40,806 nt of DNA from Aurantiacibacter xanthus (lineage in GTDB: Bacteria; Pseudomonadota; Alphaproteobacteria; Sphingomonadales; Sphingomonadaceae), in contig NZ_QXFM01000110.1 in assembly GCF_003584015.1 (NCBI RefSeq), positions 1-40,806 on the forward strand. Direction: 5' to 3'. The first letter of the stretch is position 1, and each line of letters starts with the position of its first letter. The position numbers were made by a program, and so were the translations under genes. Below are positions 4,596 to 35,372 of the stretch, in pieces. Below the pieces are notes generated by a model. The model had not been told where the DNA came from. It made no database searches and was given only the letters and a program-made list of their open reading frames with translations.

Positions 4596-5963
4596 TCAGG
4601 CTGCCATCTGAGCCGCTACCGTATCATTCGCACCAATCGCGTTTTCCCCATCGTCTAGGCCGAGGAAGCGCGACAGGGCGGCTTGGCGAGACTGGCGATC
4701 GAGCGCGTAAGACGTGTGCTGGAACGAAATGCCGTGCATAAGGCCCTGAATGTAGCCTGAGATCGTATCGGCCGCCATGATGAGCGCGGTGTCCAGCGTG
4801 TGGATGTATTTGCTCGTCACGCTGTTGCGCGAGTGTCCGACGATCGCGGAGATAGTCGCCTCGGTGAAACCGAGATCATTGCCAAGGCTGGCGAAGCTGT
4901 GGCGCAGGACATGGGGTGTCATCCATTCCAGTTCGGTGCCCTTGAAGATCGCCTTCCACTGGCGCGGGAAACCGCCGAACGCCTGATCGTGCTTTCGAAT
5001 CCCTGGGAACACGAAGGTCTGCTCTTCAACCGGGCGCAGGTTCTCAAGCCTTTCCACGACGCGCAGGCCGATCGGGCGAACTGACGCGCCCTCCTTGCTG
5101 TCGTTGAGCCGCAGGCAGCTACTATCAGCATCGAACTCGCTCCATTCCAGACCGATGATCTCGCTGCGCCGCGCGCCCGTCAGGGCTATGTTGCGAGCGA
5201 TCTCCACCGCCATGGCGTAGTTCGGATTTCGGCCAGCTTCGTCGAGTATCTCGCCGAAGACGCGGTATTCGGCTTCGGTCAGGCGGCGGGTGCGAACCTT
5301 GTCCTTCGGCTTCTTCACACCAGCGGCAGGGTTGAGGTCGATGATCCCCGCGTCCATCGCATAGGTCAGGATGCCGCCAAGCAGCCCCACCGTGCGGGAC
5401 GCCGTGCCGGCGCCGCCTTTGACGATCGAGCGGCCCCGCAGGCTTTTTGTCTTTACGTTCCGCCGGGTCTTGCCGGCCATCACGTCTTTCAGAAGCTTGG
5501 TGATGTCCGCCTTGGTCAGATCCTTGACCCGGCGCGTCCCGAGCAGCGGCACGATATGGCGATTGATGCGCCCCTTGTCGGACACAATCGTTCCCGGCCG
5601 CTTCGGCCTGCCACCTTTGCCGAGGATGAGACCGTCATCCAAATCCTTGAGATAGAGGTCACAGAGTTCCTTGACCGTGATCGCCTTGTTGTCGATCTGC
5701 TTTTCCTCGGCGGGATTGTCGCCTTGCGCGACTCGGCCCAGGAGCACCTTGGCTTCCTTCCGGGCCATCTCTGGCGTCCACACGCCATGCAGGCCGATCG
5801 TGAACCGCCGAGTCCGCCCGAGCGCGCGATATTGGATCAGGTAGCTGCGCCTGCCTGACGCGAAGACACGCAGCCCGAAACCCGGCAGCTCGTCGTCCCA
5901 CAGAAAATAGTCCTTCTCGCGCGAAACGGCGGCATCTACGTTCCGCTTGTTGATCTTGGCCAT
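4596..5963 (-). CDS. int: Tyrosine site-specific integrase
   Basis: This 455-residue tyrosine recombinase has an N-terminal DUF4102-like arm-binding domain (about residues 1-90, FLWDDELPGFGLRVFASGRR). A core-binding SAM-like domain and a C-terminal catalytic domain follow. Catalytic residues are visible in order: Arg in ALTGARRSEIIGLEW near 262, the box TPHVLRHSF near 352, His in VGHSRNSV, and the nucleophile Tyr in SKYIHT near 385. The length fits element integrases of the P4/tRNA-targeting type. I chose the ATG at 5963 because GGAGG lies about seven bases upstream; the upstream METGLSSEVYR extension has no such signal. The gene reads away from a tRNA 3' fragment about 200 bp upstream of its start, the expected place for its attachment site. 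Confidence 0.93.
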   Translation of the reverse strand: MAKINKRNVDAAVSREKDYFLWDDELPGFGLRVFASGRRSYLIQYRALGRTRRFTIGLHGVWTPEMARKEAKVLLGRVAQGDNPAEEKQIDNKAITVKELCDLYLKDLDDGLILGKGGRPKRPGTIVSDKGRINRHIVPLLGTRRVKDLTKADITKLLKDVMAGKTRRNVKTKSLRGRSIVKGGAGTASRTVGLLGGILTYAMDAGIIDLNPAAGVKKPKDKVRTRRLTEAEYRVFGEILDEAGRNPNYAMAVEIARNIALTGARRSEIIGLEWSEFDADSSCLRLNDSKEGASVRPIGLRVVERLENLRPVEEQTFVFPGIRKHDQAFGGFPRQWKAIFKGTELEWMTPHVLRHSFASLGNDLGFTEATISAIVGHSRNSVTSKYIHTLDTALIMAADTISGYIQGLMHGISFQHTSYALDRQSRQAALSRFLGLDDGENAIGANDTVAAQMAA

Positions 5964-5992
5964 ACGATACACCTCCGACGACAGGCCTGTTT

Positions 5993-6040
5993 CCACGGAA
6001 GCACCACGGAAGCAGGTGGGAGCAGGTGGGAGCAGGTGGG
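5993..6040. repeat. Two short tandem direct repeats before the integrase gene
   Basis: Two exact copies of CCACGGAAGCA (5993-6003 and 6004-6014) run into three exact copies of AGCAGGTGGG (6011-6020, 6021-6030, 6031-6040). They lie between the integrase start and the tRNA-like attachment core. This is where arm-type integrase or excisionase binding sites are normally found, so that role is likely but not shown. Confidence 0.7.
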
Positions 6041-9010: not shown

Positions 9011-10342
9011 TTACACCTGTTTTCGCAGGAAAAGGTGTTCTCCGAAAAAGACAACTGCGATTCCCAGCGCCGCAAAGAGGACGATCATCGCGTCGCTCTG
9101 CAACTTGGTCCAGGTGAAGGCTCCCAGAACGACCAGATCAGCCGCCAGCGCCGCCAGCAAAATCTCGGCACGCGCCCCGATCTCCTTGCGCAGGTTCCGC
9201 AGGACGCCCCAATGCACAAGCATGTCCATGACGAGGTAGAAGAACACGCCAAGGGCAGCGATGCGGGAAAGGTCGAACAGGACAGCAAGGACTCCGGCGA
9301 CCACCACCGTGTAGACCAACAGGTGGCTGCGCAGACTACCTTTCATCCCGAAGTGGCTGTGCGGGATCATCTTCATCTCGGTGAGCATTGTCAGCATGCG
9401 GGATACGGCGAACACGCTCGCCACGACGCCGGAAGCGGTGGCGGTAACGGCGATCACAATCGTGAACCAGAACCCGATGCGGCCAAGCGCGGGCTCGGCG
9501 GCTGCCGCCAGCGAGTAATCGCGCGCCGCCACGATTTCGTCGATGCCAAGGCTTGCCCCCACCGCGGCTGCAACAAGGAGATACGTCACGACGCAGATGC
9601 CGATGGCGATCATGATCGTGCGCCCGACATTGCGGTGCGGATCAACGATCTCGCCGCCGCTATTCGTGATTGTCGTGAAACCCTTGAAGGCAAGGATCGA
9701 GAAGGCGACGGACGCAACCATGCCCTCCCACCCGAATCCGCTTGTGGGCTTTGCAAAGGCTCCACCCGAAAACCCGCTCACCCAGAGCGCGGCGATTGCG
9801 AAGATCGCGATACCGCCAATCTTGATTGCTGACATGACAATCGAGACCATGCTCACCGAGCGATTGCCCGAAGCATTCACGAGATAGGCGAACACGATCA
9901 ACGCCAGGGCGAGTGCCGACTGCAGCAGACCATTGTCCTGCATCTCGAAGGGACGCAGCGCGTAGGTGGCAAATGTGCGCGCGACGAGGCTTTCGTTGAT
10001 CACCATTGAAAGCGCCATAAGCAGCGAAGCCGCAGCGGCTACGGTGCTTGGACCGTATGCCTTCTGCAGGATCATCGCGATGCCGCCTGACGAAGGCCAG
10101 GCGTTGGACATCTTTATGTAGCTGTATGCCGCCAGGGCAGTGACGATGGCACCGGCGATGAATGACAGCGGGAACAAGGGGCCGGCGAGTTCGGCGATCT
10201 GTCCGGTGAGGGCGAAGATACCCGCGCCGATCATCACTCCGGTGCCCATGGCGACAGCGCCGCCAAGCGTTATGCTTTCCTTCTCTTCCGATCCGCCGTG
10301 TGAATGCTGACCATCGGTGTGGTTTTGGTGCGCTTCCGTCAC
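9011..10342 (-). CDS. APC family permease with His-rich N-terminus
   Basis: This 443-residue polytopic inner-membrane protein belongs to the amino acid-polyamine-organocation (APC) superfamily. The first transmembrane segment carries the family motif region [21 protein letters not shown], and about 12 hydrophobic segments follow. The N-terminal tail ([17 protein letters not shown]) is rich in histidine, unlike ordinary amino acid permeases, and suggests cytosolic metal binding. It is the last gene of the copper operon. Its GTG start overlaps the stop of the copper ATPase by 4 bp, so translation is probably coupled. The transported substrate is unknown; a link to copper tolerance, perhaps supply or export of a copper-binding amino acid or thiol, is inferred only from context. 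Confidence 0.8.
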
Positions 10343-12558
10343 AGCCTTGCCGTCCGCAACCGCAGGGAGTTGAGGACCACAGAGATCGAAGACGCACTCA
10401 TCGCAAAGGCAGCGAACATCGGACTGATGAGCATGCCCATGACCGGATAAAGCACCCCTGCGGCGACCGGCACGCCTGCAGCATTGTAGATCAGAGCAAA
10501 GAACAGGTTTTGCCGGATGTTGCCCATGGTCGCCTGGGCAAGTCGGCGGGCGCGAACAATCCCGTCGAGATTGCCCTTCACCAGAGTGATGCCCGCGCTT
10601 TCGATGGCGACATCCGCGCCGGTCCCCATGGCGATGCCGACATCGGCCTGTGCCAGAGCGGGGGCATCGTTAACGCCGTCGCCTGCCATGGCCACCCTTG
10701 CTCCACCATCCTGCAATTCGCGAATGATGCGGGCTTTGTCTTCGGGCAGCACGTCGGCACGGATTTCGTCAATGCCGAGCCGCGCGGCGACAGCCTTGGC
10801 CGTGCGTTCGTTGTCGCCCGTCGCCATAATGATGCGCAGGCCAAGCGTGTGCAGTGCCTTGAGCGCATCGGGCGTGGTTTCCTTGATCGGGTCAGCCACG
10901 CTGACGAGTCCGGCAATCGCTCCATCGATCGCTACGAACATCACAGTCTCGCCTTCGTCACGGCGCTGGTTGGCCTTTTCGACCAGATCACCGGCAGCCA
11001 AGCCAAGGTCTTCGATCATCGCCTTGTTTCCGAGCGATACCGCGTGCCCATCGACCTCGCCCTTCACACCCTTCCCGGTGACCGCCTCGAACTCCCTCGC
11101 CTCGACAAGGGAGATGGCTCGCTCCTCGGCACCATTCACGATGGCTTCTGCCAGGGGATGTTCGGAGCCGCGTTCGAGCGATGCGGCTACTCGCAATACT
11201 TCCTCCTCATCCTTTCCCGGCTGAGGGAGGACGGCGACAAGCTTAGGCTTGCCCTTGGTGAGCGTGCCGGTCTTGTCTACGATCAGAGTGTCGATCTTCT
11301 CGAACCGTTCCAGCGCTTCGGCGTTCTTGATCAGCACGCCTGCCTGCGCGCCCCTGCCGGTCGCCGTCATGATCGACATGGGAGTGGCCAGGCCAAGCGC
11401 ACAGGGGCAGGCAATGATGAGAACGGCTACGGCGGCGACCAGGGCATAGGCCAGGGTGGGTTCTGGTCCCCAGATGGCCCATGCGATGAATGCGAGCACG
11501 GCAATACCGATGACCGCCGGGACGAACCAGCCTGCGACCTTGTCTGCATATTTCTGGATCGGCGCGCGCGAACGCTGTGCGGCTGCCACCATCTCCACGA
11601 TCTGCGAGAGCATGGTGTCCGATCCAACCCGCTTGGCTTCGATCACGAGGCTGCCAGTGCCGTTGATCGTTGCTCCGGTGACGGGATCGCCTACGACCTT
11701 CTCGACCGGGACCGGTTCGCCCGTAATCATGCTTTCATCGACGGACGACCGACCATCGACCACTTCGCCGTCAACCGGCACCTTGTCGCCCGGTCGCACG
11801 CGCAGGCGGTCGCCCACATGGACGTGTTCGAGCGGGATCTCCTCCTCGCTGCCATCATCACGGATGACCCGCGCGGTCTTCGCCGCAAGGTCGAGGAGCG
11901 CGCGGATTGCCTTGCCTGTCCCTTCGCGGGCGCGCAGTTCCATGACCTGCCCCAACAGGACCAGCGTCACGATAACCGCCGCCGCTTCAAAATAGACCCC
12001 GACATGGTCTTCCGCATCGCGGAAGCCGTCAGGGAAAATATCGGGTGCGATTACCGCGACCACGCTGAACGCATAGGCTGACACCACACCCATGCCGATC
12101 AGCGAGAACATATTGAGGTTGCGCGTGCGGAACGAGTTCCAGCCCCGGACCAGGAAGGGCCATCCGCACCACAGCACCACAGGCGTGCCGAGGACCAGCT
12201 CGATCCAGACGGTGGTGCGCTCCCCAAAGACCTCGCGGATGCCCGATAGCCCGACCAGCGGCCCCATGGTCAGGACCAGCAAGGGGACGGTCAAAATCGC
12301 GCCAACCCAGAAGCGGTGCGTGAAATCAACAAGTTCGGGATTGGGGCCTTCCTCGACCATTGTGGCCGAATCCAGTTCCAGCCCCATGCCGCATATCGGG
12401 CAGGAACCCTGGTGCGTCTGCCGCACCTGCGGATGCATCGGGCAAGTGTATACCGTTCCCTCGTATCCTTGGGGGACGGTGTCGTAACGCCCGTCACTTG
12501 GAGCATCTTTGTCAGCGTGATGACTGCAATGCCCGGCGTGTTCGTGATCGTGAGCCAT
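10339..12558 (-). CDS. Copper-type heavy-metal P-type ATPase
   Basis: This P1B-type ATPase of 739 residues exports monovalent copper (or silver) from the cytosol. It begins with a His-rich tail ([18 protein letters not shown]) and a small heavy-metal-binding domain ([20 protein letters not shown], about residues 35-63), not a ferredoxin-like CxxC domain. The membrane metal site is [11 protein letters not shown] near 384, the phosphorylation site is [10 protein letters not shown] near 426, the HP motif HPLAEAI lies near 466, and the hinge [10 protein letters not shown] near 626. [11 protein letters not shown] is the actuator loop. The ATG at 12558 has GAGGAG nine bases upstream and is preferred to a TTG at 12591. 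The CPC motif and the neighbouring multicopper oxidase support copper as the substrate. Confidence 0.93.
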
Positions 12559-12587
12559 ATCGGAGAGCTCCTCGACTCCGCGCGGTC

Positions 12588-12851
12588 TCAACCGGCGCGG
12601 CGACTGAAATGGTTATACAACGGCACCAGCAGGATTGCAGCATAGAGGAAACTTCCCACGGCTCCGGCGATGAAGCCGGAAAGGGTCAACCACTCGAATC
12701 CCGGCAAGAGTGTTGCCCAAGCGCGGTGCATGTGCATCTGCTCAGGCGCCCCCAGGCCGAAGGCGATGCAGGCGAAGTAGGTGATCAGGAGGAACAGGCT
12801 GAGCGTCCTGCCCCAGGCCCTGATGCTTTGGCCAATCGCGGATTTCGCCAT
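12588..12851 (-). CDS. DUF5676 family small membrane protein
   Basis: This 87-residue protein has two hydrophobic segments, [18 protein letters not shown] and [20 protein letters not shown]. Between them is a conserved-looking [18 protein letters not shown] stretch and it ends in PLYNHFSRR. That is the pattern of the DUF5676 family, small two-helix inner-membrane proteins often found beside copper or other metal resistance genes. The biochemical role is unknown. The Met/His pair between the helices could contact copper. AAGGAAAAG precedes the ATG. The gene ends 29 bp before the ATPase start and is probably co-transcribed with it. A 124-bp gap upstream shows no gene. Confidence 0.8.
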
Positions 12852-12975: not shown

Positions 12976-13335
12976 TTAGCCGGGGGTGTGGCCTTCGTGG
13001 GCCGAATGATCCTGCGGGGCAGGATCGCTCTGGGGAGCGTCGGTCTGACCTTCGGTCGCGCTGGGTTGGGCGGCCTGGCCGTGGTCCATTGTGCCATGCT
13101 GCATCTGGCTGTGATTCATGTTCGCATGGTCCATGTGGCCGTGCTCCATCATCTGGCAGGTCATCGTGCCGTCTTCGCCGCGCATCATCATGCCGTGCAT
13201 CCGCTCGCCGTTGTGCGTCATTTCACACATCTGCGGCTGTTCGGCTTGGGCTGGTATATCCTGGTCTTGCGCTGCAAGCGGTCCAGCAAACATGCTTCCC
13301 GCAGCCAGTGCCATAATCAATCGCTTCATTGTCAT
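12976..13335 (-). CDS. Secreted Met/His-rich copper-binding protein
   Basis: This 119-residue protein has an N-terminal signal peptide (MTMKRLIMALAAGSMFAGPLAAQ) and a mature part packed with methionine and histidine. MCEMTHNGERMHGMMMRGEDG is followed by repeated MDH, MNH and MQH units (GHMDHANMNHSQMQHGTMDHG) and a loose tail. Such Met/His clusters bind Cu(I) and Cu(II) in periplasmic copper-handling proteins. It has no recognised enzymatic domain, so it is best seen as a periplasmic copper sponge or chaperone. It starts 12 bp after the DUF411 gene. A second ATG two codons in (MKRLIM) is an equally plausible start. Confidence 0.75.
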   Translation of the reverse strand: MTMKRLIMALAAGSMFAGPLAAQDQDIPAQAEQPQMCEMTHNGERMHGMMMRGEDGTMTCQMMEHGHMDHANMNHSQMQHGTMDHGQAAQPSATEGQTDAPQSDPAPQDHSAHEGHTPG

Positions 13336-13347
13336 TCTCTTTCGGTT

Positions 13348-13812
13348 CTATTCGTAACTGGCAAACACGCTGCGACCGGCGCTGCCGAAAGCGATCACCT
13401 GGTAGGGTTGCGTGCGATCACCCATCTCCATCCCCGGCGAGCCGATCGGCATTCCGGGAACCGCGAGACCTTCAACGCCCTCTGGTCGCTCGCGCAGGAG
13501 GCGGGCAATATCCGCCGCCGGGACGTGACCTTCGATGACATATCCATCGACCACCATGGTGTGACATGATCGCAAATCGACCGGCACACCTTCGCGGTCC
13601 TTGATCGCGCCAATGTCCGAACGCTCTTTCACAGCGATCTCTGCCTGCATGCCCGCATGGACATGATTGGCCCACTCTTCGCAGCACCCGCAATTCGGAT
13701 CGCGGAACATCGTGTAGCTCGCCGCCTGGGCAGCATTGGAGCAGGCCGCGAGCGCCATCAGCAGTGCAGGAGCCATTGATCGACGCAGTGAGATGATGGG
13801 TGAAAGTGTCAT
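13348..13812 (-). CDS. DUF411 family metal-binding protein
   Basis: This 154-residue exported protein has an N-terminal signal or lipoprotein-like segment (ALLMALAACSNAAQA; the Cys may be a lipobox). A DUF411 domain follows: YTMFRDPNCGCCEEWANHV, VPVDLRSCHTMVVDGYVIEGHVPAADI, LAVPGMPIGSPGME. DUF411 proteins are small periplasmic proteins regularly found in copper and silver resistance clusters. The CGCC and the SCHT cysteine are the likely metal ligands. The exact role is not established. An ATG at 13812 with GGAG upstream is the clear start. The gene lies between the DUF2231 and Met/His-rich genes in the same direction. Confidence 0.88.
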   Translation of the reverse strand: MTLSPIISLRRSMAPALLMALAACSNAAQAASYTMFRDPNCGCCEEWANHVHAGMQAEIAVKERSDIGAIKDREGVPVDLRSCHTMVVDGYVIEGHVPAADIARLLRERPEGVEGLAVPGMPIGSPGMEMGDRTQPYQVIAFGSAGRSVFASYE

Positions 13813-13833: not shown

Positions 13834-14544
13834 TCAGCGCAGGCCGAGATGGTTGGGGCCGAACACCATTTCTCCGCCGAGGTAACCCTGGGCGACGATA
13901 GCGACCGCAAGAACGAGCAGGACCACCCGAAGCGCCTTTCTGCGTTCGCTTCTGAACGCGAGCCAGGTAGCGAGTAACGCCAGTGCGGCGATTGCGGTCC
14001 CGTTCCAGCGGTGAAGGCCGAGTGTCTCTGATCGGTCGGAAAGCCGCCAGCCTCCCGCGGTCCATCCCAAGAGCGCAGCGACGACCGCCCCAGCCGCGCC
14101 ACCGGCAACGAGGAAGCGGGAGGTCACCTCCAGGCCAATGGAGGGGCGCACCAGCAACATGAGTTCGGCGATTGCTGCGGCCAGCAACAATGCGATCGGG
14201 AAATGCGCAGCGACCGGGTGCAGCCGCCCAAGCACATCGATTACAGATGTGGCGCGGTTCTCTGCAATTGCCGCTGCCATCGCCTGCTCGGGCGTCAGAC
14301 TCGCTTCGGCTGGCGCAACTGCGGGAGCGACTTCGCCATCGTGATGGTCAAGCATGCCGGTATCGTGGTGATCGTCTCCGGCATGGTGTTCGGCGTCAGC
14401 GTCGTGCCCCATCTCCACCTGCACCATTTCGGCATCAGTCATGTCCTGCTGGTGTTCTTCGTGGGCAGTGACAGGAGGTGCCAATGCAATCGAGAGGCCA
14501 ATTGCCAATACAGGCAGGACCAGTCGTCGAAATCTTGCAATCAT
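13834..14544 (-). CDS. DUF2231-like membrane protein with His-rich exported domain
   Basis: This protein of about 236 residues has a signal or first membrane segment (LVLPVLAIGLSIALAPPVTA). A strongly histidine- and aspartate-rich region follows (HHAGDDHHDTGMLDHHDGE, about residues 55-75). The C-terminal half has four hydrophobic segments beginning GRLHPVAAHFPIALLLAA, the signature region of DUF2231 membrane proteins. The His-rich part is likely to bind copper in the periplasm. It is the first gene of the minus-strand copper operon. ATGs at 14553 and 14544 are both possible; AAGGG lies nine bases before 14544, so that one is preferred. Its transcript should begin near 14574 from the ECF-type promoter described separately. 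Confidence 0.7.
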   Translation of the reverse strand: MIARFRRLVLPVLAIGLSIALAPPVTAHEEHQQDMTDAEMVQVEMGHDADAEHHAGDDHHDTGMLDHHDGEVAPAVAPAEASLTPEQAMAAAIAENRATSVIDVLGRLHPVAAHFPIALLLAAAIAELMLLVRPSIGLEVTSRFLVAGGAAGAVVAALLGWTAGGWRLSDRSETLGLHRWNGTAIAALALLATWLAFRSERRKALRVVLLVLAVAIVAQGYLGGEMVFGPNHLGLR

Positions 14545-14580
14545 GTTTGCCATCCCTTGGTCAGGCGAGATAACCAGTCC

Positions 14581-14607
14581 TACGAATGACGGGCCGCCAG
14601 CCCTCAA
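14581..14607 (-). promoter_or_regulatory. Predicted ECF-sigma promoter of the minus-strand copper operon
   Basis: Read on the minus strand, TTGAGGG (14607-14601), 16 bases, then CGTA (14584-14581) form an ECF-type -35/-10 pair. Its -35 element is one arm of the inverted repeat CCCTCAAGAAAAATTGAGGG (14601-14620), whose other arm is the -35 of the opposite promoter. The predicted transcript start near 14574 gives a leader of about 30 bases to the DUF2231 gene. Confidence 0.75.
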
Positions 14608-14613
14608 GAAAAA

Positions 14614-14640
14614 TTGAGGGGCGCTGCGCCAGCATGCGTA
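14614..14640 (+). promoter_or_regulatory. Predicted ECF-sigma promoter of the sensor/sigma/CopAB operon
   Basis: TTGAGGG (14614-14620), exactly 16 bases, then CGTA (14637-14640) mirror the opposing promoter with the same spacing. The downstream bases TGTC resemble the GGAC after the other -10. The transcript would start near 14647, ahead of a GGGAAG ribosome binding site and the ATG at 14670. The sigma factor encoded in this operon is the natural reader, giving positive autoregulation. Confidence 0.75.
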
Positions 14641-14669
14641 TGTCAGGGCAAGAACGGGAAGAATTGCAT

Positions 14670-14954
14670 ATGCACCATGACGATCATCTGGACAGGGCGC
14701 TCAAGTCCCTCGGCAATGTCGCGGCGCCCTCAATGTCTGGCGACTTCATGGATGGCGTGTGGCTGCGAGCCGGGCAGATGGAGCAAGCTGCGGGCCAGCG
14801 CCGCCGCCTGGCCTTGATGGCTGGCATGGCATTTATCGGGCTTGGAACGGGAATTGGCGTGGTCCAGGCTCCTGCCTCGGCCGAGCCTGCCCAGTATCAA
14901 TTGATTGACGGGGCCGATCTCTCCCCGTCTGCACTTCTTCATGTCGAACCATGA
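14670..14954 (+). CDS. CnrY-like membrane anti-sigma factor (predicted)
   Basis: This 94-residue protein has a short cytosolic N-terminal part (about 45 residues, MHHDDHLDRALKSLGNVAAP), one transmembrane helix (about 47-66, LALMAGMAFIGLGTGIGVV) and a short periplasmic tail. Size, topology and position match CnrY, the 95-residue anti-sigma of the nickel/cobalt system of Cupriavidus, which holds the sigma factor at the membrane. Direct sequence similarity cannot be judged by eye, so the assignment rests on architecture and operon order (anti-sigma, sensor, sigma). The ATG at 14670 has GGGAAG upstream; the longer frame from 14586 starts upstream of the predicted promoter and is rejected. The gene overlaps the sensor gene by 4 bp. 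Confidence 0.65.
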   Translation: MHHDDHLDRALKSLGNVAAPSMSGDFMDGVWLRAGQMEQAAGQRRRLALMAGMAFIGLGTGIGVVQAPASAEPAQYQLIDGADLSPSALLHVEP

Positions 14955-15391
14955 AGTTCGGCATTCTCCAGATCATGGCCGGTGTTCTGCTGGCGATAGC
15001 TGCCGGTTGCATCGGCGCGTTCGCAGCGGGTGAGTGGCGTGACGGCGAACAAGGCCAGGGATTGCATGCCTTTGTCCACGACAAGCTCGATCTCGATGCG
15101 GAGCAATCCGCGGCGCTTGAACAGCTGGAAGCCGACTTCGCCATCGAACGCCGACAGCTGGAGCTTTCCCTGCGTGCGGAGAATGCGCAGCTCGCAGCCG
15201 CGATGGATGAGGAGCACGAATACGGACCGCAAGTCTCCGTGGCGATCGACAACGTCCACGCCGCAATGGGTGACTTGCAGAAAGCGACAGTGCGCCATGT
15301 CTTTGCCATGCGCGACTTGCTGACTGAAGAGCAGCGGGCTCAATTCGACAGGCAGGTCTCGGCATCCCTCACCGGCGAAACCGGCGAATGA
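14951..15391 (+). CDS. CnrX-like periplasmic metal sensor
   Basis: This 146-residue protein has one N-terminal membrane anchor (about 5-26) and a helical periplasmic domain of the heavy-metal-sensor (CnrX/CzcI, CpxP-like) type. The five metal-site residues reported for CnrX (His42, His46, Glu63, His119, Met123) have equivalents with one constant shift of three: His39, His43, Glu60, His116 and Met120. They lie in LHAFVHDKL, ALEQLE and VRHVFAM. In CnrX this site releases the anti-sigma factor when metal binds. Here copper is the likely inducer from context, although the ligand set is that of a nickel/cobalt sensor. The ATG overlaps the previous stop (ATGA), so the two are probably translated together. 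Confidence 0.8.
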   Translation: MKFGILQIMAGVLLAIAAGCIGAFAAGEWRDGEQGQGLHAFVHDKLDLDAEQSAALEQLEADFAIERRQLELSLRAENAQLAAAMDEEHEYGPQVSVAIDNVHAAMGDLQKATVRHVFAMRDLLTEEQRAQFDRQVSASLTGETGE

Positions 15392-15397
15392 ACGGCG

Positions 15398-15958
15398 GTG
15401 GTCAAAGAGACGCAGCCCGCTGAACACGATCTGGTAGAGCAGGTCCAGACTGGCAGCCGGTCGGCCTTTGATCGGCTGGTCACGCCACTCGTCCCGCAAT
15501 TGCTTACGCTTGCGCGCCGCATGCTGGGTTCGGCGAGCGAAGCCGAAGATGCCGTGCAGTCCGCTTTGGCATCTGTCTGGGTGGCACGCACGAAACTCGA
15601 TCCTGAACGTCCCCCGGTAGCCTTCCTGACCACGGTAACCCTGAACAAATGTCGCGATGCCCTGCGGCGGCGCAAGGCAGCTCGCTTCTTTGGGTTCGCC
15701 GGCAACGATTTCGATCTCGACCTTGCCGCCGATGAGCCCGATGCCGGAGTTGTCGCAGCAGATCGCCAGGCTTTGGAAACGGTTCAGCAAGCGATGGAAC
15801 GCCTCCCAGTCAGGTTGCGCGAGGCACTGGTGCTCGTGAGCATGGAGGGCATGTCCCAGCGCGAAGCGGCGGAGGTCCTTGGCGTTACAGAAAAGGCCGT
15901 CGAGACCCGCGTCTACCGGGCGCGAGCGCGCTTGCGGGAGAATTTCGACGGATTTTGA
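15398..15958 (+). CDS. ECF-family RNA polymerase sigma factor (CnrH-like)
   Basis: This 186-residue ECF sigma factor has region 2 at about residues 20-85 (FDRLVTPLVPQLLTLARRML, SEAEDAVQSALASVWVARTKL) and region 4 at about 128-180 (MERLPVRLREALVLVSMEGM, REAAEVLGVTEKAVETRVYRAR). There is no C-terminal extension. It should recruit RNA polymerase to the TTGAGGG-N16-CGTA promoters in this island when released by its membrane anti-sigma. The start is a GTG seven bases after the sensor stop, with a weak ribosome binding site, which suggests translational coupling. Its own stop codon TGA is embedded in the -35 element of the next promoter. Confidence 0.92.
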   Translation: MVKETQPAEHDLVEQVQTGSRSAFDRLVTPLVPQLLTLARRMLGSASEAEDAVQSALASVWVARTKLDPERPPVAFLTTVTLNKCRDALRRRKAARFFGFAGNDFDLDLAADEPDAGVVAADRQALETVQQAMERLPVRLREALVLVSMEGMSQREAAEVLGVTEKAVETRVYRARARLRENFDGF

Positions 15959-15981
15959 GGGGTGTGTGCGAAGGCTGCGTA
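15955..15981 (+). promoter_or_regulatory. Third ECF-type promoter, directly before the multicopper oxidase
   Basis: TTGAGGG (15955-15961), 16 bases, then CGTA (15978-15981) repeat exactly the motif seen twice in the divergent region. The -35 element overlaps the sigma gene's stop codon. With a start some seven bases after CGTA, the mRNA would begin at about 15988-15991, at or next to the oxidase ATG (15991). That would make a leaderless or nearly leaderless message and fits the lack of a ribosome binding site there. Confidence 0.72.
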
Positions 15982-15990
15982 ACACTTGGC

Positions 15991-17751
15991 ATGAGCACGA
16001 ACCCGATAAGCATCGATCGCCGCAAGTTCCTCTCTGCCAGTGCAGGTGCAGCAAGCCTGATTGGTCTTGGCCATTCAATACCGGCCTGGGCGACCGGCAG
16101 TCACGAAGGGGCGCTGGCTCGCAAAGGCAGCGATGTGCTGTCCGGCGAACACCTGACCATGACCGTTGCCGATGCCCGGTTCGCCACCGGCAATCGCCGC
16201 GGCCCTGCCGTGACGGTCAACGGCTCGGTGCCGGGTCCGCTGGTGCGATTGCGCGAGGGTCAGAACCTCGTCGTCGATCTGCTCAATAACAGTTCAATGG
16301 GCACGTCTATCCATTGGCATGGCTTGCTCGTTCCGTTCCTGATGGACGGTGTTCCAGGGGTGACCATGGCGGCAGTCGAACCTGGCGAAAGCTTCCGCTA
16401 CGAATTTCCCGTCCGCCAGGCAGGCACCTATTGGTGGCATGCCCACACCTTGCAGGAACCGATGGGACACTACGGCCCGATCATCATCGATCCGGCTGGT
16501 GGCGATCCTCACCAGGTGGACCGTGATTACGTAGTCATGCTGTCGGACTGGTCGCCGATGGACCCGCACGAAGTCATGCGGAAGCTCAAGGTCGGCGAAG
16601 CACCCTTCAATTATCAGAAGACGACGGCGACCGACGACTACCCGCTGTCAGGCGAGGATCGCCGCATGTGGGCGCGGATGCGGATGATGCCGACGGACAT
16701 CTCTGATGTTTCGGCTCCGCTCTACAGTTACCTGATCAACGGGCATGGCCCTGAAGACGGGCTTGAGTTCGCTTTCCAGCCGGGCGAGCGGGTTCGCCTG
16801 CGCTTCATAAACGGATCGGCCATGACCTTCTTCAATGTCCGGATCCCCGGTCTGCCGATGTCGGTGATCTCTGCCGACGGGCAGGATGTGCGGCCGGTCG
16901 AAGTCGACGAGTTCCAGATCGGCAACGCCGAAACCTACGACGTGATAGTGGAGCCTGCCGACGATGCCTCTTTCGCCATCGTTGCCGAGGCAATGGATCG
17001 GTCCGGCATGGGAATTGCCATGCTGGCAAGCCGGCCCGGCGCGCAGGCGGAGGTGCCGCCGCTGCGCGACCCGCCGCTGTTGACCATGGCCGACATGGGC
17101 ATGAGCCATGGATCTTCCGGCGCAGCCATGGATCACGGCGCGATGGATCATGGTGATACGTCCGAGGGCGGAGCGGTGGGTGCCATGAACATGCGCGATA
17201 CCTCGCTGCTACCGCCCAGTGTTGCGGTGGGGCCAGGCGTGGACATGGTTTCGATGAACCCTGTGGATCGGATGGGTGACCCCGGCATCGGCCTCGACAA
17301 TGTCGGTCACCGCGTTCTCAACTATCGCCAGTTGGTAGCAGCCAACATGAACCGCGACATGCGGCAGCCGACCCGGCTCAAGGAGATCCACCTCACCGGC
17401 AACATGGAGCGCTACATGTGGTCCTTCGACGGCCAGAAATTCTCTGCCGTCGCCGATGATCCGATCCGCTTCGCCTTCAACGAGCGGGTGCGCGTGAAGC
17501 TCGTGAACGACACGATGATGGCGCACCCGATCCATCTGCACGGTCACTTCTTCGAGCTAGTGAACGATGCCCCGCACGGTCACCAGCCGCTGAAGCATAC
17601 CTTGGTCGTCCAGCCGGGGGGCAGCGCACAGTTCGACCTGACAGCGAACGAGCCGGGCGACTGGGCGTTCCACTGCCACCTGATCTACCACATGCACAAC
17701 GGCATGTTCCAGGTGGTCACAGTTCGACCTCTGCAAGGGGGAGCAGGCTGA
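15991..17751 (+). CDS. copA: Multicopper oxidase CopA (copper resistance)
   Basis: This 586-residue periplasmic multicopper oxidase oxidises Cu(I) to the less toxic Cu(II). A Tat signal is present (DRRKFLSASAGAASLIGLG, RR at residues 10-11). The copper-site motifs are in order: HWHG (109-112), WWHAH (148-152), HPIHLHGH (512-519) and HCHLIYHMHNGM (561-572), covering the T1 and T2/T3 centres. A Met/His-rich loop at about 364-400 (MADMGMSHGS, MDHGAMDHGD) is typical of PcoA/CopA and binds extra copper. The ATG at 15991 fits the Tat signal; upstream in-frame TTG and GTG codons lie inside the predicted promoter. It overlaps CopB by one base. Confidence 0.95.
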   Translation: MSTNPISIDRRKFLSASAGAASLIGLGHSIPAWATGSHEGALARKGSDVLSGEHLTMTVADARFATGNRRGPAVTVNGSVPGPLVRLREGQNLVVDLLNNSSMGTSIHWHGLLVPFLMDGVPGVTMAAVEPGESFRYEFPVRQAGTYWWHAHTLQEPMGHYGPIIIDPAGGDPHQVDRDYVVMLSDWSPMDPHEVMRKLKVGEAPFNYQKTTATDDYPLSGEDRRMWARMRMMPTDISDVSAPLYSYLINGHGPEDGLEFAFQPGERVRLRFINGSAMTFFNVRIPGLPMSVISADGQDVRPVEVDEFQIGNAETYDVIVEPADDASFAIVAEAMDRSGMGIAMLASRPGAQAEVPPLRDPPLLTMADMGMSHGSSGAAMDHGAMDHGDTSEGGAVGAMNMRDTSLLPPSVAVGPGVDMVSMNPVDRMGDPGIGLDNVGHRVLNYRQLVAANMNRDMRQPTRLKEIHLTGNMERYMWSFDGQKFSAVADDPIRFAFNERVRVKLVNDTMMAHPIHLHGHFFELVNDAPHGHQPLKHTLVVQPGGSAQFDLTANEPGDWAFHCHLIYHMHNGMFQVVTVRPLQGGAG

Positions 17752-18779
17752 TGTGCAAGACCATGCTGTTGTCCCTGCCGCTTATTGTCCTGCCGCAGGT
17801 GGCCTTGGCGCAGGACCACGACCATTCCAGTCCCAATCCCGCCGAGGTAACCGCCCCAGTTGAGGAGGAGAGTGCCGACGATCCGCACGCCGGGCATCAG
17901 GCGATGGACCATTCGGACGATCACGGCATGTCACTAAATGCCACTACGGAGAGTTCGAGCGGGCAGACGATGGATCACGCCGCAATGGGTCACGGCTCGA
18001 TGGATCACGGTGCAGCGGGGGACAGCGCAGACATACCGCAAGGTCCGCCGCCAACCGAAGCCTTTTCGGGACCGCTCTATGCTGCGGACGCCTTTGTCGG
18101 CGAAAAAGAAATGGCCGCGTCGCGCGCGGCGGTCGCTCGTGAGGTCAGTGGCTTGCCGGTCTACTGGTTCCAGGCGGATCGTGCCGAATATAGGGTGCGG
18201 GGCGGCCAGGACGGTTACCTATGGGATGTGCAGGGCTATTACGGCGGTGACCTCGACAAGTTCTGGTTCAAGAGTGAAGGTGAGGGTAATTTCGGCGGCG
18301 AACTTGAGAGCGCGGAGCTACAAGGGCTGTGGAGCCATGCGATCGGTCCATGGTGGGATTTGCAGGCGGGCGTTCGTCAGGACTTCACCGGACCGGAGCG
18401 CACCCATGCCGTGGTCGGCATCCAGGGACTGGCACCCTACCTATTCGAGGTCGATGCCGCCGCATTCCTCTCGACTAGTGGCGATGTCACGGCGCGTTTC
18501 GAAGCCGAGCTGGACCAGCGCATTACCCAGCGCCTCATCCTGCAACCGCGCGCCGAGTTGAACCTGGCAGCGCAGGACATACCCGAACTGGGTGTCGGTG
18601 CCGGGCTCGACAGCGCCGAACTCGGCCTGCGCTTGCGTTACGAATTTACGCGGCAGTTTGCGCCATACGTCGGGATCGAGCAGGAATGGAAGGTTGGCAG
18701 CAGTGCAGACTTTGCGCGAGCGGCTGATGAAGATCCGAGCGTGACCAACTTTGTATTCGGTGTTCGCTTCTGGTTTTGA
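17751..18779 (+). CDS. copB: Outer-membrane copper resistance protein CopB
   Basis: This 342-residue protein has a signal peptide (about 1-21), a Met/His-rich linker (about 22-95, with HAGHQAMDHSDDHGM and MDHAAMGHGSMDHGA) and a C-terminal beta-barrel domain of the CopB/PcoB family (about 95-342). The barrel shows YWFQADRAEYRVRGGQDGYLWD, GPWWDLQAGVRQDF and the terminal strand FVFGVRFWF, which ends in aromatic residues as outer-membrane proteins do. CopB works with CopA in periplasmic copper handling. The ATG shares its first base with the CopA stop (TGATG). It is the last gene of the plus-strand copper operon. Confidence 0.93.
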   Translation: MCKTMLLSLPLIVLPQVALAQDHDHSSPNPAEVTAPVEEESADDPHAGHQAMDHSDDHGMSLNATTESSSGQTMDHAAMGHGSMDHGAAGDSADIPQGPPPTEAFSGPLYAADAFVGEKEMAASRAAVAREVSGLPVYWFQADRAEYRVRGGQDGYLWDVQGYYGGDLDKFWFKSEGEGNFGGELESAELQGLWSHAIGPWWDLQAGVRQDFTGPERTHAVVGIQGLAPYLFEVDAAAFLSTSGDVTARFEAELDQRITQRLILQPRAELNLAAQDIPELGVGAGLDSAELGLRLRYEFTRQFAPYVGIEQEWKVGSSADFARAADEDPSVTNFVFGVRFWF

Positions 18780-26626: not shown

Positions 26627-26894
26627 CGAGCGTCACCACCTACAGCGCCCCATGGCGTGCTCTCCGCCCCGCTGGAGTGCAGCAGAGAAGTGATCGGTCG
26701 CCTCAACTCACGAAGAAAAATCGATGGCAAGATAAAAGCCGCGATGTGCCAAGCCATCTGCAGCCGGTCGTAGCCTTGTTTTACAAGGCCTTGTGGCGTT
26801 CCGCCGCGAGGTGTGCGGCAATGTCCGCGATGTGTGCCTTTCGCCACTTCCTACCGTTTATGCGGCTTTGCGGCACATTACCGGACTCCCGACC
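26627..26894. other. Intergenic region before the relaxase, candidate oriT
   Basis: No gene is seen here. A perfect hairpin GCCTTGT-ttt-ACAAGGC (26773-26789) is followed by GCGG-type repeats, and the stretch lies directly upstream of the relaxase gene, where the transfer origin is often located. No nick sequence could be recognised, so the oriT role is only a suggestion. Confidence 0.35.
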
Positions 26895-28625
26895 ATGAAA
26901 GGCGAGGAAGACTTCCGTGTCCGGCCAGGCCGCATCCGCACGCGGGGCGGACAGCGTGCACGACCCGCTATCTCGCAGGCTCTTGCCGCCGCCCAACGAG
27001 CCGGCGGCCTTGGCGCGGGACGCGCACGATCTTCAGGTGTGGGGTTTTCGACCTTCGGACGCGGGCGTGTAGCGAGCATTCGCGCCGCCCATCGTCTCGG
27101 TAACCGGGCTCGCAACGTCGTGATCAAGGCGCGCGTGGTCCGGCACGGGAGCCGCTCGTCGCTTGGTGCACATCTCGATTACCTGCAACGCGATGGCGTC
27201 ACCCGCGATGGCGAGCGTGGCATGCTATTCGGGACCGAGGGCGACGAATTCGACCGCGGCGAGTTTTCCGCGCGCTGCGAGGATGACCGGCACCATTTCC
27301 GCTTTATCGTCTCGCCCGAAGACGCCGGGCAAATGCGCGACCTCAAGACTTTCACGCGCGAGCTGATGGGGCAGATGGAAAAGGATCTCGGCACCCGTCT
27401 CGACTGGCGCGGGGTCGAGCACTGGAATACCGACAACCCCCATGCACATGTCATCGTGCGCGGCGTTGGCGAGTACGGCCGTGATCTCGTGATCGCGCGC
27501 GACTATATCCGCGAGGGAATGCGGGCACAGGCGCGCGAGATCGTCACGCAGGAACTCGGCCTGCGCACCGATCTCGAAATCCACCAATCGCTAGAGCGGC
27601 AGGTCAATGCGGAACGCTGGACAGATCTGGATTACCGATTGGCGCGAGAGCGCGACCACAACGGCATCATTGAAACGGCTCCTGAACGGGGAGTACGGCC
27701 TGGTCCGGATCATGCACTGCGCATCGGCCGCTTGCGCAAGCTCGAGGGGCTCGGCCTCGCCAGCGAGGTCGCGCCCGGCCAATGGACAATGGCTGGAAAT
27801 GCGGAGACCGCGCTGCGAGAATTGCAGGCTCGCGGTGACATCATCAAGCGGATGCACCGCGCCATGACTGAGCGGGGCATCGACCGGGGCTCGGCCAGCT
27901 ATGCGCTCGAACCCGAACCCGGACAGAACGTAATGGGCACGCTGGTGGAGCGTGGGCTGCACGACGAGCTGACTGGCAGGGCTTATGCGATCGTCGACGG
28001 CATTGATGGGCGGACCCATCATATCCAGCTTCCCGACATCGATGCGACCGGCGATTGCAGGCCCGGTGCGATTGTCGAACTACGGCGCTTCGAGGATCGC
28101 AAGGGCCGGCAGCGGATGGCGCTGGCCGTACGCTCGGACTTCGACCTGAACGCACAGGTCCGCGCGCCGGGTGCGACCTGGCTCGATCGGCGGAACCTGT
28201 CGGGCGATGGGCGAGACCTCGGGGGTGGTTTCGGGGCGGAGGTTCGGGACGCGATGGAAAAGCGTGCCGAGCATCTCGCAGGTGAGGGCCTGGCGCGGCG
28301 GCAGGGGCGACGGATCATCTTCGCACGCAATCTGCTTGATACGCTCCGGCGGCGGGAACTGGATGCCACCGCCGAGAAACTGTCGGCGGAAATCGGCCTG
28401 CCGCATAGGCCATCACTGACGGGCGACTATGTCCTCGGCACTGTGCGCCAGCGGTTGAATCTTGCCTCGGGCCGTTTTGCCATGATCGAAAATGGCCTCG
28501 GCTTCCAGCTCGTGCCCTGGACGCCATCGCTGGATCGTCAGATGGGCAAGCACATCTCCGGTGTAATGCGCGGCGACGGCAGCGTGGAATGGTCGTTCGG
28601 GCGCGGGCGGGGGTTAGGGCGATAA
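26895..28625 (+). CDS. Relaxase/mobilisation nuclease (DUF3363 family)
   Basis: This 576-residue protein is a relaxase. The N-terminal region is basic (RPGRIRTRGGQRARP). A likely catalytic tyrosine lies in LGAHLDYLQRDGV, and the metal-binding histidines are in HWNTDNPHAHVIVRGV near residue 185. HHFRFIVSPEDA precedes these. The C-terminal half is the DUF3363 domain (VRPGPDHALRIGRLRKLEGLG to the end). Relaxases nick oriT and pilot the strand into the recipient. The ATG at 26895 is preferred; an in-frame start at 26793 would add 34 residues without a ribosome binding site. Confidence 0.9.
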   Translation: MKGEEDFRVRPGRIRTRGGQRARPAISQALAAAQRAGGLGAGRARSSGVGFSTFGRGRVASIRAAHRLGNRARNVVIKARVVRHGSRSSLGAHLDYLQRDGVTRDGERGMLFGTEGDEFDRGEFSARCEDDRHHFRFIVSPEDAGQMRDLKTFTRELMGQMEKDLGTRLDWRGVEHWNTDNPHAHVIVRGVGEYGRDLVIARDYIREGMRAQAREIVTQELGLRTDLEIHQSLERQVNAERWTDLDYRLARERDHNGIIETAPERGVRPGPDHALRIGRLRKLEGLGLASEVAPGQWTMAGNAETALRELQARGDIIKRMHRAMTERGIDRGSASYALEPEPGQNVMGTLVERGLHDELTGRAYAIVDGIDGRTHHIQLPDIDATGDCRPGAIVELRRFEDRKGRQRMALAVRSDFDLNAQVRAPGATWLDRRNLSGDGRDLGGGFGAEVRDAMEKRAEHLAGEGLARRQGRRIIFARNLLDTLRRRELDATAEKLSAEIGLPHRPSLTGDYVLGTVRQRLNLASGRFAMIENGLGFQLVPWTPSLDRQMGKHISGVMRGDGSVEWSFGRGRGLGR

Positions 28626-33365: not shown

Positions 33366-35372
33366 ATGTCCGCGACCAAGATATTGTGGGGCCAGGTCAT
33401 CGCCGTCCTTCTGATCGTGCTGATTGCGATCTGGAGCGCGACCCAATGGACGGCAGCGGCGCTGGCCTATCAGCCGGAATTGGGATCGCCCTGGTTCTCG
33501 CTGGGCGACTGGCCCGTTTATCCGCCGCCGGCCTTTTTCTGGTGGTGGTTTGCATTCGACGCTTATGCCCCGGAGATATTTAGGACGGGTGCCTGTATCG
33601 CCGTGTCGGGTGGATTCGCTGCGATCGTCTTTGCTATCTGCATGTCGGTATGGCGCGCGCGGGAAGCGCGAAACGCTGAGACCTATGGGTCGGCACGCTG
33701 GGCGACCATGGGAGAAGCTCGGACCGCCGGGCTGTTGCGCGACGAGGGTGTCGTTCTGGGCCGTCTCGGATCGGACTATCTGCGCCATGATGGACCCGAG
33801 CATGTTCTTTGCTTCGCCCCCACGCGCAGCGGCAAAGGTGTCGGCCTGGTTGTGCCGTCGCTACTCACCTGGCCGGGCTCTGCGATCGTTCACGACATCA
33901 AGGGAGAGAACTGGCAGCTAACGGCAGGCTTTCGCGCGCGTCACGGTCGCGTGTTACTGTTCGATCCGACCAACGCTGCATCGGCCGCCTACAATCCCCT
34001 GCTGGAAATTCGCAAGGGTGCCTGGGAAGTGCGCGATGTGCAGAATGTCGCTGACGTTCTGGTCGATCCAGAAGGCAGTCTTGAAAAGCGCAATCACTGG
34101 GAGAAGACCAGTCATGCACTACTGGTCGGTGCAATCTTGCATGTTCTCTATGCTGGCGAAGACAAGACATTGGCCGGAGTCGCCGCCTTTCTGTCGGACC
34201 CGCGGCAGCCGATCGAATCGACCTTACGCGCGATGATGACCACGCCGCATCTGGGTAAGGCAGGTGTCCATCCCGTCGTCGCCAGCGCCGCGCGCGAGCT
34301 GTTGAACAAATCGGCGAACGAAAGATCGGGTGTGCTCAGCACGGCCATGTCTTTCCTGGGACTCTATCGCGATCCCGTGGTCGCACAGGTGACGCGTAGT
34401 TGCGAGTGGCGCATAGCGGATCTCGTCGAGAGCGATGTGCCGATCACACTCTATCTGGTCGTGCCGCCCAGCGACATCTCACGCACCAAGCCGCTCATCC
34501 GCCTGATCCTCAACCAGATCGGACGGCGGCTGACCGAGGATTTGCGGGCCCGGCAGTCGCGCCACCGCTTGCTCCTGATGCTCGACGAATTTCCTGCGCT
34601 TGGCCGGCTCGATTTCTTCGAGAGCGCGCTCGCCTTCATGGCAGGCTACGGCATTCAGAGCTTCCTGATCGCCCAAAGCCTTAACCAGATCGAAAAAGCA
34701 TATGGACCGAACAACGCGATCCTCGACAACTGTCATGTGCGCGTGTCGTTTGCCACCAATGACGAACGTACCGCCAAGCGCATTTCGGATGCACTGGGCA
34801 CGGCTACCGAAATGCGGGCGATGAAGAACTATGCCGGCCATCGCCTGTCCCCCTGGTTAGGGCACCTGATGGTTTCGCGCTCGGAAACCGCTCGGCAACT
34901 CCTGACGCCGGGCGAGGTGATGCAGCTTCCACCTGACGATGAGATCATCATGATCGCCGGTATCCCGCCAATTCGGGCGAAGAAGGTCCGCTACTACAAG
35001 GACCGGCGGTTCGCCGAACGAGTTATTTCACCGCCGGATATGGAAGGCGGAGCACGCAAGACGCGTCCCGACGATTGGAGCGGCCGGCGTCCAATCGTTG
35101 CGCCGCCGACGTTTGAACCGGCACCGGTAGACAAGTCTGTCGAAGGATCGGGCGAGGATGACGAGGCCGAAAATGCCGGGTTGCGCCGACAGCCCGATTT
35201 GGAACGTCATGTCGATATCTCACCGGCTCCCAAACCCGCGCCAGCCAACGAGTTCGAACCGGAGGATCCCGAACCGGATAGTGATGCCGCGCGGCAAGCC
35301 ACCGTGCGCCGTCAGGTGCGGACCGTAGCGCGTCAGGCATCACTCGATCCCGATGATGGTATTGAATTGTGA
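33366..35372 (+). CDS. traG: Conjugal transfer coupling protein TraG (VirD4-like)
   Basis: This 668-residue type IV coupling ATPase links the relaxosome to the secretion channel. Two N-terminal transmembrane segments (about 8-30 and 75-98) precede the cytosolic motor. Walker A is in CFAPTRSGKGVGLVVPSLL near residues 150-170, followed by HDIKGENW, and Walker B is in RLLLMLDEFPALGRLD near 400. The C-terminal 90 residues are proline- and acid-rich and probably unstructured. AAAGGAGG before the ATG is a strong start signal. The gene normally follows the relaxase directly, but here the nuclease-helicase pair lies between them. Confidence 0.95.
   Translation: MSATKILWGQVIAVLLIVLIAIWSATQWTAAALAYQPELGSPWFSLGDWPVYPPPAFFWWWFAFDAYAPEIFRTGACIAVSGGFAAIVFAICMSVWRAREARNAETYGSARWATMGEARTAGLLRDEGVVLGRLGSDYLRHDGPEHVLCFAPTRSGKGVGLVVPSLLTWPGSAIVHDIKGENWQLTAGFRARHGRVLLFDPTNAASAAYNPLLEIRKGAWEVRDVQNVADVLVDPEGSLEKRNHWEKTSHALLVGAILHVLYAGEDKTLAGVAAFLSDPRQPIESTLRAMMTTPHLGKAGVHPVVASAARELLNKSANERSGVLSTAMSFLGLYRDPVVAQVTRSCEWRIADLVESDVPITLYLVVPPSDISRTKPLIRLILNQIGRRLTEDLRARQSRHRLLLMLDEFPALGRLDFFESALAFMAGYGIQSFLIAQSLNQIEKAYGPNNAILDNCHVRVSFATNDERTAKRISDALGTATEMRAMKNYAGHRLSPWLGHLMVSRSETARQLLTPGEVMQLPPDDEIIMIAGIPPIRAKKVRYYKDRRFAERVISPPDMEGGARKTRPDDWSGRRPIVAPPTFEPAPVDKSVEGSGEDDEAENAGLRRQPDLERHVDISPAPKPAPANEFEPEDPEPDSDAARQATVRRQVRTVARQASLDPDDGIEL

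Follow-up and report, generated by a model that had tools for sequence, protein, structure and literature searches.

Outward-facing promoters predicted for a CnrH-like ECF sigma factor in a copper-resistance cluster of Aurantiacibacter xanthus

The usual -35 element of extracytoplasmic function (ECF) sigma factors is GGAAC. The two promoters of the CnrYXH system on plasmid pMOL28 of Cupriavidus metallidurans are built as AAGGG-N17-CGTATA before cnrY (cnrYp) and GAGGG-N17-CGTATA before cnrC (cnrCp). Earlier primer extension, as cited in an excerpt of PMC9045368, puts their starts 24 and 25 bases upstream of the respective genes; when placed on the sequence, each start lies 12 bases beyond the C of CGTA. 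An excerpt of PMC3817407 refers to promoter models given as a figure.

The window examined here is the whole analysed stretch of 40,806 nucleotides from Aurantiacibacter xanthus (NZ_QXFM01000110.1). It contains a perfect inverted repeat, composed of CCCTCAA at 14601-14607, GAAAAA at 14608-14613 and TTGAGGG at 14614-14620, whose arms belong to two back-to-back copies of TTGAGGG-N16-CGTA, one at 14581-14607 on the minus strand and one at 14614-14640 on the plus strand. A first-pass annotation had reported this repeat between two copper operons, with 16 bases and then CGTA following in each direction (14637-14640 on the plus strand, 14584-14581 on the minus strand), and the coordinates are exactly as it gave them. 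The two copper operons were also correctly recognized, but the promoter copies number three, and the copy at 15955-15981 (plus strand) was overlooked. That third copy overlaps the stop codon of the sigma factor gene and precedes a copper oxidase gene, with nine bases between its end and the start codon of the oxidase. The copies are called P1, P2 and P3 below, and the features of the region are as follows:

10339-12591, minus strand: copper P-type ATPase (TIGR01511)
12976-13335, minus strand: small His/Met-rich protein (no Pfam or NCBIfam match)
13348-13812, minus strand: DUF411 protein (family match)
13834-14553, minus strand: DUF2231 membrane protein, first gene after P2 (family match)
14581-14584, minus strand: putative P2 -10 element CGTA, 16 bases from the P2 -35 element (motif)
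14601-14607, minus strand: putative P2 -35 element TTGAGGG (motif; kept in relatives)
14608-14613, no strand: A-rich gap GAAAAA separating the two -35 elements (length varies in relatives)
14614-14620, plus strand: putative P1 -35 element TTGAGGG (motif; kept in relatives)
14637-14640, plus strand: putative P1 -10 element CGTA (motif; cnrYp/cnrCp geometry)
14670-14954, plus strand: 94-residue protein, probable anti-sigma factor in the CnrY position (by reading, a single hydrophobic stretch)
14951-15391, plus strand: CnrX/NccX-like periplasmic metal sensor (PF13801; nearest solved relatives NccX and CnrX)
15398-15958, plus strand: ECF sigma factor (PF04542 and PF08281; regions 2 and 4)
15955-15981, plus strand: putative P3, TTGAGGG-N16-CGTA (motif; its -35 element holds the TGA stop of the sigma gene)
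15991-17751, plus strand: copper-resistance multicopper oxidase, first gene after P3 (TIGR01480)
17751-18779, plus strand: copper resistance protein CopB (PF05275)

The inverted repeat taken alone is ordinary, since the window holds 62 perfect inverted repeats whose arms have 7 bases and whose loops have 3-12; it was absent from the automated repeat listing of the window and was then verified directly. The exact bipartite motif is another matter, with three copies in the window where shuffles predict 0.02, and CGTA lies 16 bases on from three of the six TTGAGGG sequences in the window (binomial P about 1E-7). The -10 elements of P1 and P2 are 53 bases apart (14584 to 14637), and P2 of the window is without the G before CGTA and the T after it that are commonest in relatives. 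Other readings of the site were tried and set aside. The repeat is upstream of both predicted starts and thus untranscribed from either, and no terminator-like site was listed there, which disfavors a hairpin or terminator; no sigma-70 promoter was found at 14400-16100; and a GGAAC-type ECF -35 element differs from the motif present. A BLASTN search of plasmids with the 161-base intergenic stretch as the query gave no match. Two IMG/VR contigs filed as viral (L169 and L170), which may be mobile elements, carry the complete palindrome with CGTA 16 bases further on.

Among the genes around the promoters, the 94-residue protein has the position and the size of a CnrY-like anti-sigma factor. It matched nothing in Pfam or NCBIfam, and its one weak match to CnrY, over 27 residues, is unconvincing. 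When aligned, the sensor keeps the metal-ligand pattern of CnrX, namely HxxxH, Glu and HxxxM. The role of Met123 in CnrX is given in an excerpt of PMC7689651. The best PDB match of the sigma factor is CnrH (E 3E-33, 38% identity). Gene order places the copper P-type ATPase probably further down the P2 unit. The copper cluster probably sits on an integrative mobile element, because reading of translations finds integrase-like (4596-5996, minus strand), relaxase-like (26793-28625, plus strand), TraG/VirD4-like (33366-35372, plus strand) and IS66-like transposase (39072-40754, plus strand) ORFs flanking it.

Across the whole genome (4,377,143 bases) the exact motif occurs five times, three times in the window and twice at a second cluster on contig C139, and a reversed-motif control has no exact copies; with one mismatch allowed there are 39 motif copies versus 19 for the control. 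The sigma factor of the second cluster is 54% identical to that of the window, and by reading of translations a similar sensor, oxidase and CopB accompany it. The divergent partner there is TTAAGGG, at a gap of 10 instead of the 6 of the window, and a further TTAAGGG copy lies ahead of a permease gene.

The first-pass annotation proposed conservation of the motif beside related sigma genes as a check, and such conservation is found in related genomes. In 119 genomes of the family there are 126 exact copies versus 48 copies of the reversed control (table counts summed). Of these exact copies, 83 are at most 6.5 kb from a member of a set of 62 sigma homologues (taken at E up to 1E-18), compared with a chance expectation of about 0.27; another 39, close to the control number, are either over 25 kb distant or on different contigs. 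Copies next to homologues of the window sigma factor account for the excess over the control. An exact copy is present within 1.5 kb of 41 of the 62 homologues; the 21 without one include the high-identity homologues G081 and G095, and also two (L142 and L147) that carry (A/G)AGGG-N16/17-CGTA, the relaxed form. In G036 (contig C31, 10587-10670), exact motifs form a divergent pair with no sigma homologue nearby (E up to 1E-18).

The relaxed motif was then counted at loci for which sigma homology was the sole selection criterion (the top 80 of 106, most of them with sphingomonad titles), where it is present as P1 in 79, as P2 in 78, as P3 in 74 and in all three positions in 73, versus 3/80 for the reversed control; many of these loci are near-identical copies, and the 80 are therefore not independent. 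P2 is missing from L067 and L074. Wider searches of 289 genomes of the class and 397 of the phylum supplied 49 further loci, the phylum loci being 30 of 39 matches. Here the relaxed motif follows the sensor, occurring in 22 of 24 loci with a CnrX-like sensor and in 1 of 25 without (Fisher 1E-10), or in 18 of 20 with a sensor once the four duplicates among the 22 are removed (Fisher 2E-9); the reversed control occurs in 1/49. The exceptions are L124 (weak sensor score of 17) and L140, which have a sensor and no motif, and L132, which has the motif without a sensor. Spacing in these 49 loci, duplicates counted, is N16 in 52 matches, N17 in 10 and N20 in one, with none at N14, N15, N18 or N19, and the reversed control gives 0-3 matches at each spacer length. 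In ten plasmid loci (L110-L119) hand-picked from 203 records, the relaxed motif is present in six of seven with a sensor, the exception being L111 (Caulobacter), and in none of three without. What the sequences show directly is the motif, common to many related bacteria, with its spacing and its position, and its association with CnrX-type sigma loci. Convergence extends to bases that the search pattern leaves free: G precedes CGTA in 98, 84 and 93% of P1, P2 and P3 copies (n = 45, 44 and 41), and TT is the commonest start of the -35 element. The inner spacer bases are poorly conserved. The observation in the window is correct, and stronger than was claimed.

The geometry of the divergent pair was compared across 84 distinct sigma proteins from a set of 106 loci that have both a sensor and the motif. 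The pair is present in 76 of the 84 and missing in 8. The gap between the 7-base -35 elements runs from -2 (an overlap) to 79, most commonly 10, 9 and 6, where gaps were taken from the nearest pair by rule and long ones may include chance pairs. In a tree of 54 representatives, neighboring rows have unlike gaps (6/5; 9/6; 29/5; 20/21), and two Cupriavidus plasmids and a genome grouping with them have no divergent pair. The tightest pair seen is that of L150 and L156, some 784-787 bases ahead of the sigma match, where the -35 7-mers share two bases (CCCTCGTAAGGG and CCCTCGTGAGGG).

Such variation favors two promoters drifting relative to each other over a protein that binds the dyad. The first-pass annotation saw a single symmetric site; this is not supported, given the changing gap, a spacing that stays at 16 (sometimes 17), and a P3 that is unpaired. 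What survives of its proposal is a pair of divergent ECF-type promoters, with the sigma factor at 15398-15958 probably serving both; the inverted repeat as one functional symmetric site lacks support. The palindrome reads as incidental, a by-product of two -35 elements set close together, because the gap varies while the promoter spacing does not. At the seven positions immediately preceding the -35 element, A/T makes up 41-83% by position across P1, P2 and P3, including the unpaired P3, and the A-rich middle of the palindrome may for that reason serve both promoters. Further upstream, most positions in P1 are about 20-50% A/T, and in P2 and P3 some positions elsewhere are A/T-rich as well. 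In the window the P3 -35 element (15955-15961) includes the TGA that ends the sigma gene, and the same holds for 34 of 73 P3 sites counted.

By analogy with the geometry of cnrYp and cnrCp, transcription in the window is predicted to start near 14649-14650 (plus strand), 14571-14572 (minus strand) and 15990-15991 (plus strand). The predicted P3 start coincides with the oxidase start codon. The distance from the P3 CGTA to the oxidase start codon is 13 bases in the window (15978-15991) and in 9 of 39 representative loci on separate branches (L030, L035, L091, L095, L097, L104, L106, L107 and L149); by the cnrYp geometry, the oxidase mRNA of such loci would be leaderless or nearly so.

The genes downstream of the motif are copper genes. 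First genes were taken automatically in 47 representative loci with a P2, the Cupriavidus loci lying outside this set, as the longest ORF of at least 60 residues starting within 220 bases, with ATG favored; individual picks may be wrong. The first gene after P3 is a TIGR01480 oxidase at all 39 sites examined. After P2 it is CopC in 22 of the 47, a methyltransferase in 6 and DUF2231 in 4, followed at 3 each by DUF411, a heavy-metal-binding domain and an acyltransferase. By its content, therefore, this is a copper regulon, and copper would be the most likely metal signal as judged by the genes controlled.

Our preferred reading, to which we give a probability of roughly 0.83, is that P1 and P2 are separate outward-facing promoters recognized by a single ECF sigma factor, P3 being a third where the sigma gene ends. 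Very probably, one metal-responsive sigma factor switches on the copper-resistance cluster through the copies of this motif. We infer that the sigma factor of the window reads them, and the extents of the operons are estimated in the same spirit. In such a scheme, the periplasmic CnrX-like sensor would bind metal, most likely copper, the membrane anti-sigma factor would then release the sigma factor, as in CnrYXH, and the complex of sigma factor and RNA polymerase would read TTGAGGG-N16-(G)CGTA. P1 would raise the anti-sigma factor, the sensor and the sigma factor itself, which amounts to autoregulation, P2 would raise the DUF2231-DUF411-ATPase arm, and P3 the oxidase and CopB.

Several alternatives bear on the same site. 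The palindrome could be the operator of a dimeric repressor or activator governing both operons, as its perfect 7-base arms, its A-rich center and its position between divergent genes might suggest; however, the arms are -2 to 79 bases apart in relatives while the CGTA of each stays fixed at 16 or 17, so that a fixed half-site spacing is absent, the third copy is unpaired, and no regulator family was found among the nine neighboring ORFs scanned, the sigma unit apart. This is very improbable and nearly refuted. Chance, or a coincidence of coding sequence, draws on how common the inverted repeat alone is, but it is left with a negligible share by the count of the full motif in the window and by the genome-wide and cross-genome association with sigma loci, and conservation refutes it. 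A reading in which the promoters are real but are used mostly by a different sigma factor, such as the C139 paralogue with its 54% identity, is unlikely rather than negligible: the paralogous locus has the same motif and the same layout, which makes cross-reading likely, but across genomes the motif tracks the sigma/sensor unit of its own locus, and, of the 53 family genomes with a match, 45 have a single such sigma factor (E up to 1E-18).

A different use of the same promoters is doubtful, though less so. Closely set -35 elements might exclude joint binding of two holoenzymes, each copy of the site then serving one operon at a time. The window has six bases between its -35 elements and about 77-79 between its predicted starts, the 7-mers of L150 and L156 overlap, and for bidirectional sigma-70 promoters an excerpt of PMC12825309 describes competition that sets in once one direction is strengthened. 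Gaps of 15-79 also occur among relatives, however, so exclusion is unnecessary for the system. Tentatively, then, the copper-cluster CnrYXH branch, frequent in sphingomonads and occurring in other alphaproteobacterial families as well, may have had its -35 elements pushed together so that the operons compete for one holoenzyme position; if this is true, a switch allocating transcription between regulator and effectors would be built in, with no extra regulator. Returning to the separate promoters of one sigma factor, that reading yields a testable promoter code, TTGAGGG-N16-GCGTA, and a regulon for a widely spread copper-linked sigma group whose specificity is now tied to the mapped CnrH promoters. 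The divergent pairs also form a natural series, their -35 elements ranging from overlapping to 79 bases apart, in which interference between neighboring ECF polymerases would be measurable. In the open-access literature, with subscription papers mostly outside that scope, no description was found of TTGAGGG with a sigma factor, of back-to-back divergent ECF promoters or of the copper-linked sigma group.

Comparison with other known systems places the locus more closely. In excerpts of PMC10141476, CorE is likewise an ECF sigma factor for copper homeostasis, but it is controlled through its own C-terminal extension, with no anti-sigma factor. The sigma-F regulon of Caulobacter crescentus (PMC3511200, in part) is similar in being small and in belonging to an alphaproteobacterial metal-stress ECF sigma factor, but its promoter is GTAACC-N16-CGAA. 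In the bidirectional sigma-70 promoters of E. coli, transcription starts on either side of, or within, a shared -10 element (excerpt of PMC12825309). According to the same excerpt, these promoters, like the pair in the window, set divergent transcription in one short stretch where polymerases may compete; unlike them, each direction in the window has its own -10 and -35 elements, and the -35 elements are back to back.

CnrYXH of pMOL28 is the nearest. The order of anti-sigma factor, sensor and sigma factor is the same, the sensors are homologous, the sigma factors are 38% identical, and in both one promoter lies ahead of the anti-sigma gene and another after the sigma gene. Both also have the (A/G)AGGG ... 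CGTA core. The first-pass annotation knew the motif from no described sigma factor, yet cnrYp and cnrCp carry (A/G)AGGG-N17-CGTATA, and the motif can be read as a variant of the CnrH type, for which a precedent exists. The CnrH promoters differ in having 17 bases between the core elements, where the window has 16, although runs of G make them readable with a G-shifted -35 element and 16 bases as well. At the CnrYXH locus (L110) no divergent partner was found, and its targets are Ni/Co efflux genes, with cnrC after the sigma gene, whereas those in the window are copper genes. The locus is therefore a relative of CnrYXH with other targets rather than a cnr determinant itself, and is best read as part of a copper-cluster branch of CnrYXH-type systems, with three putative promoters of one sigma factor.
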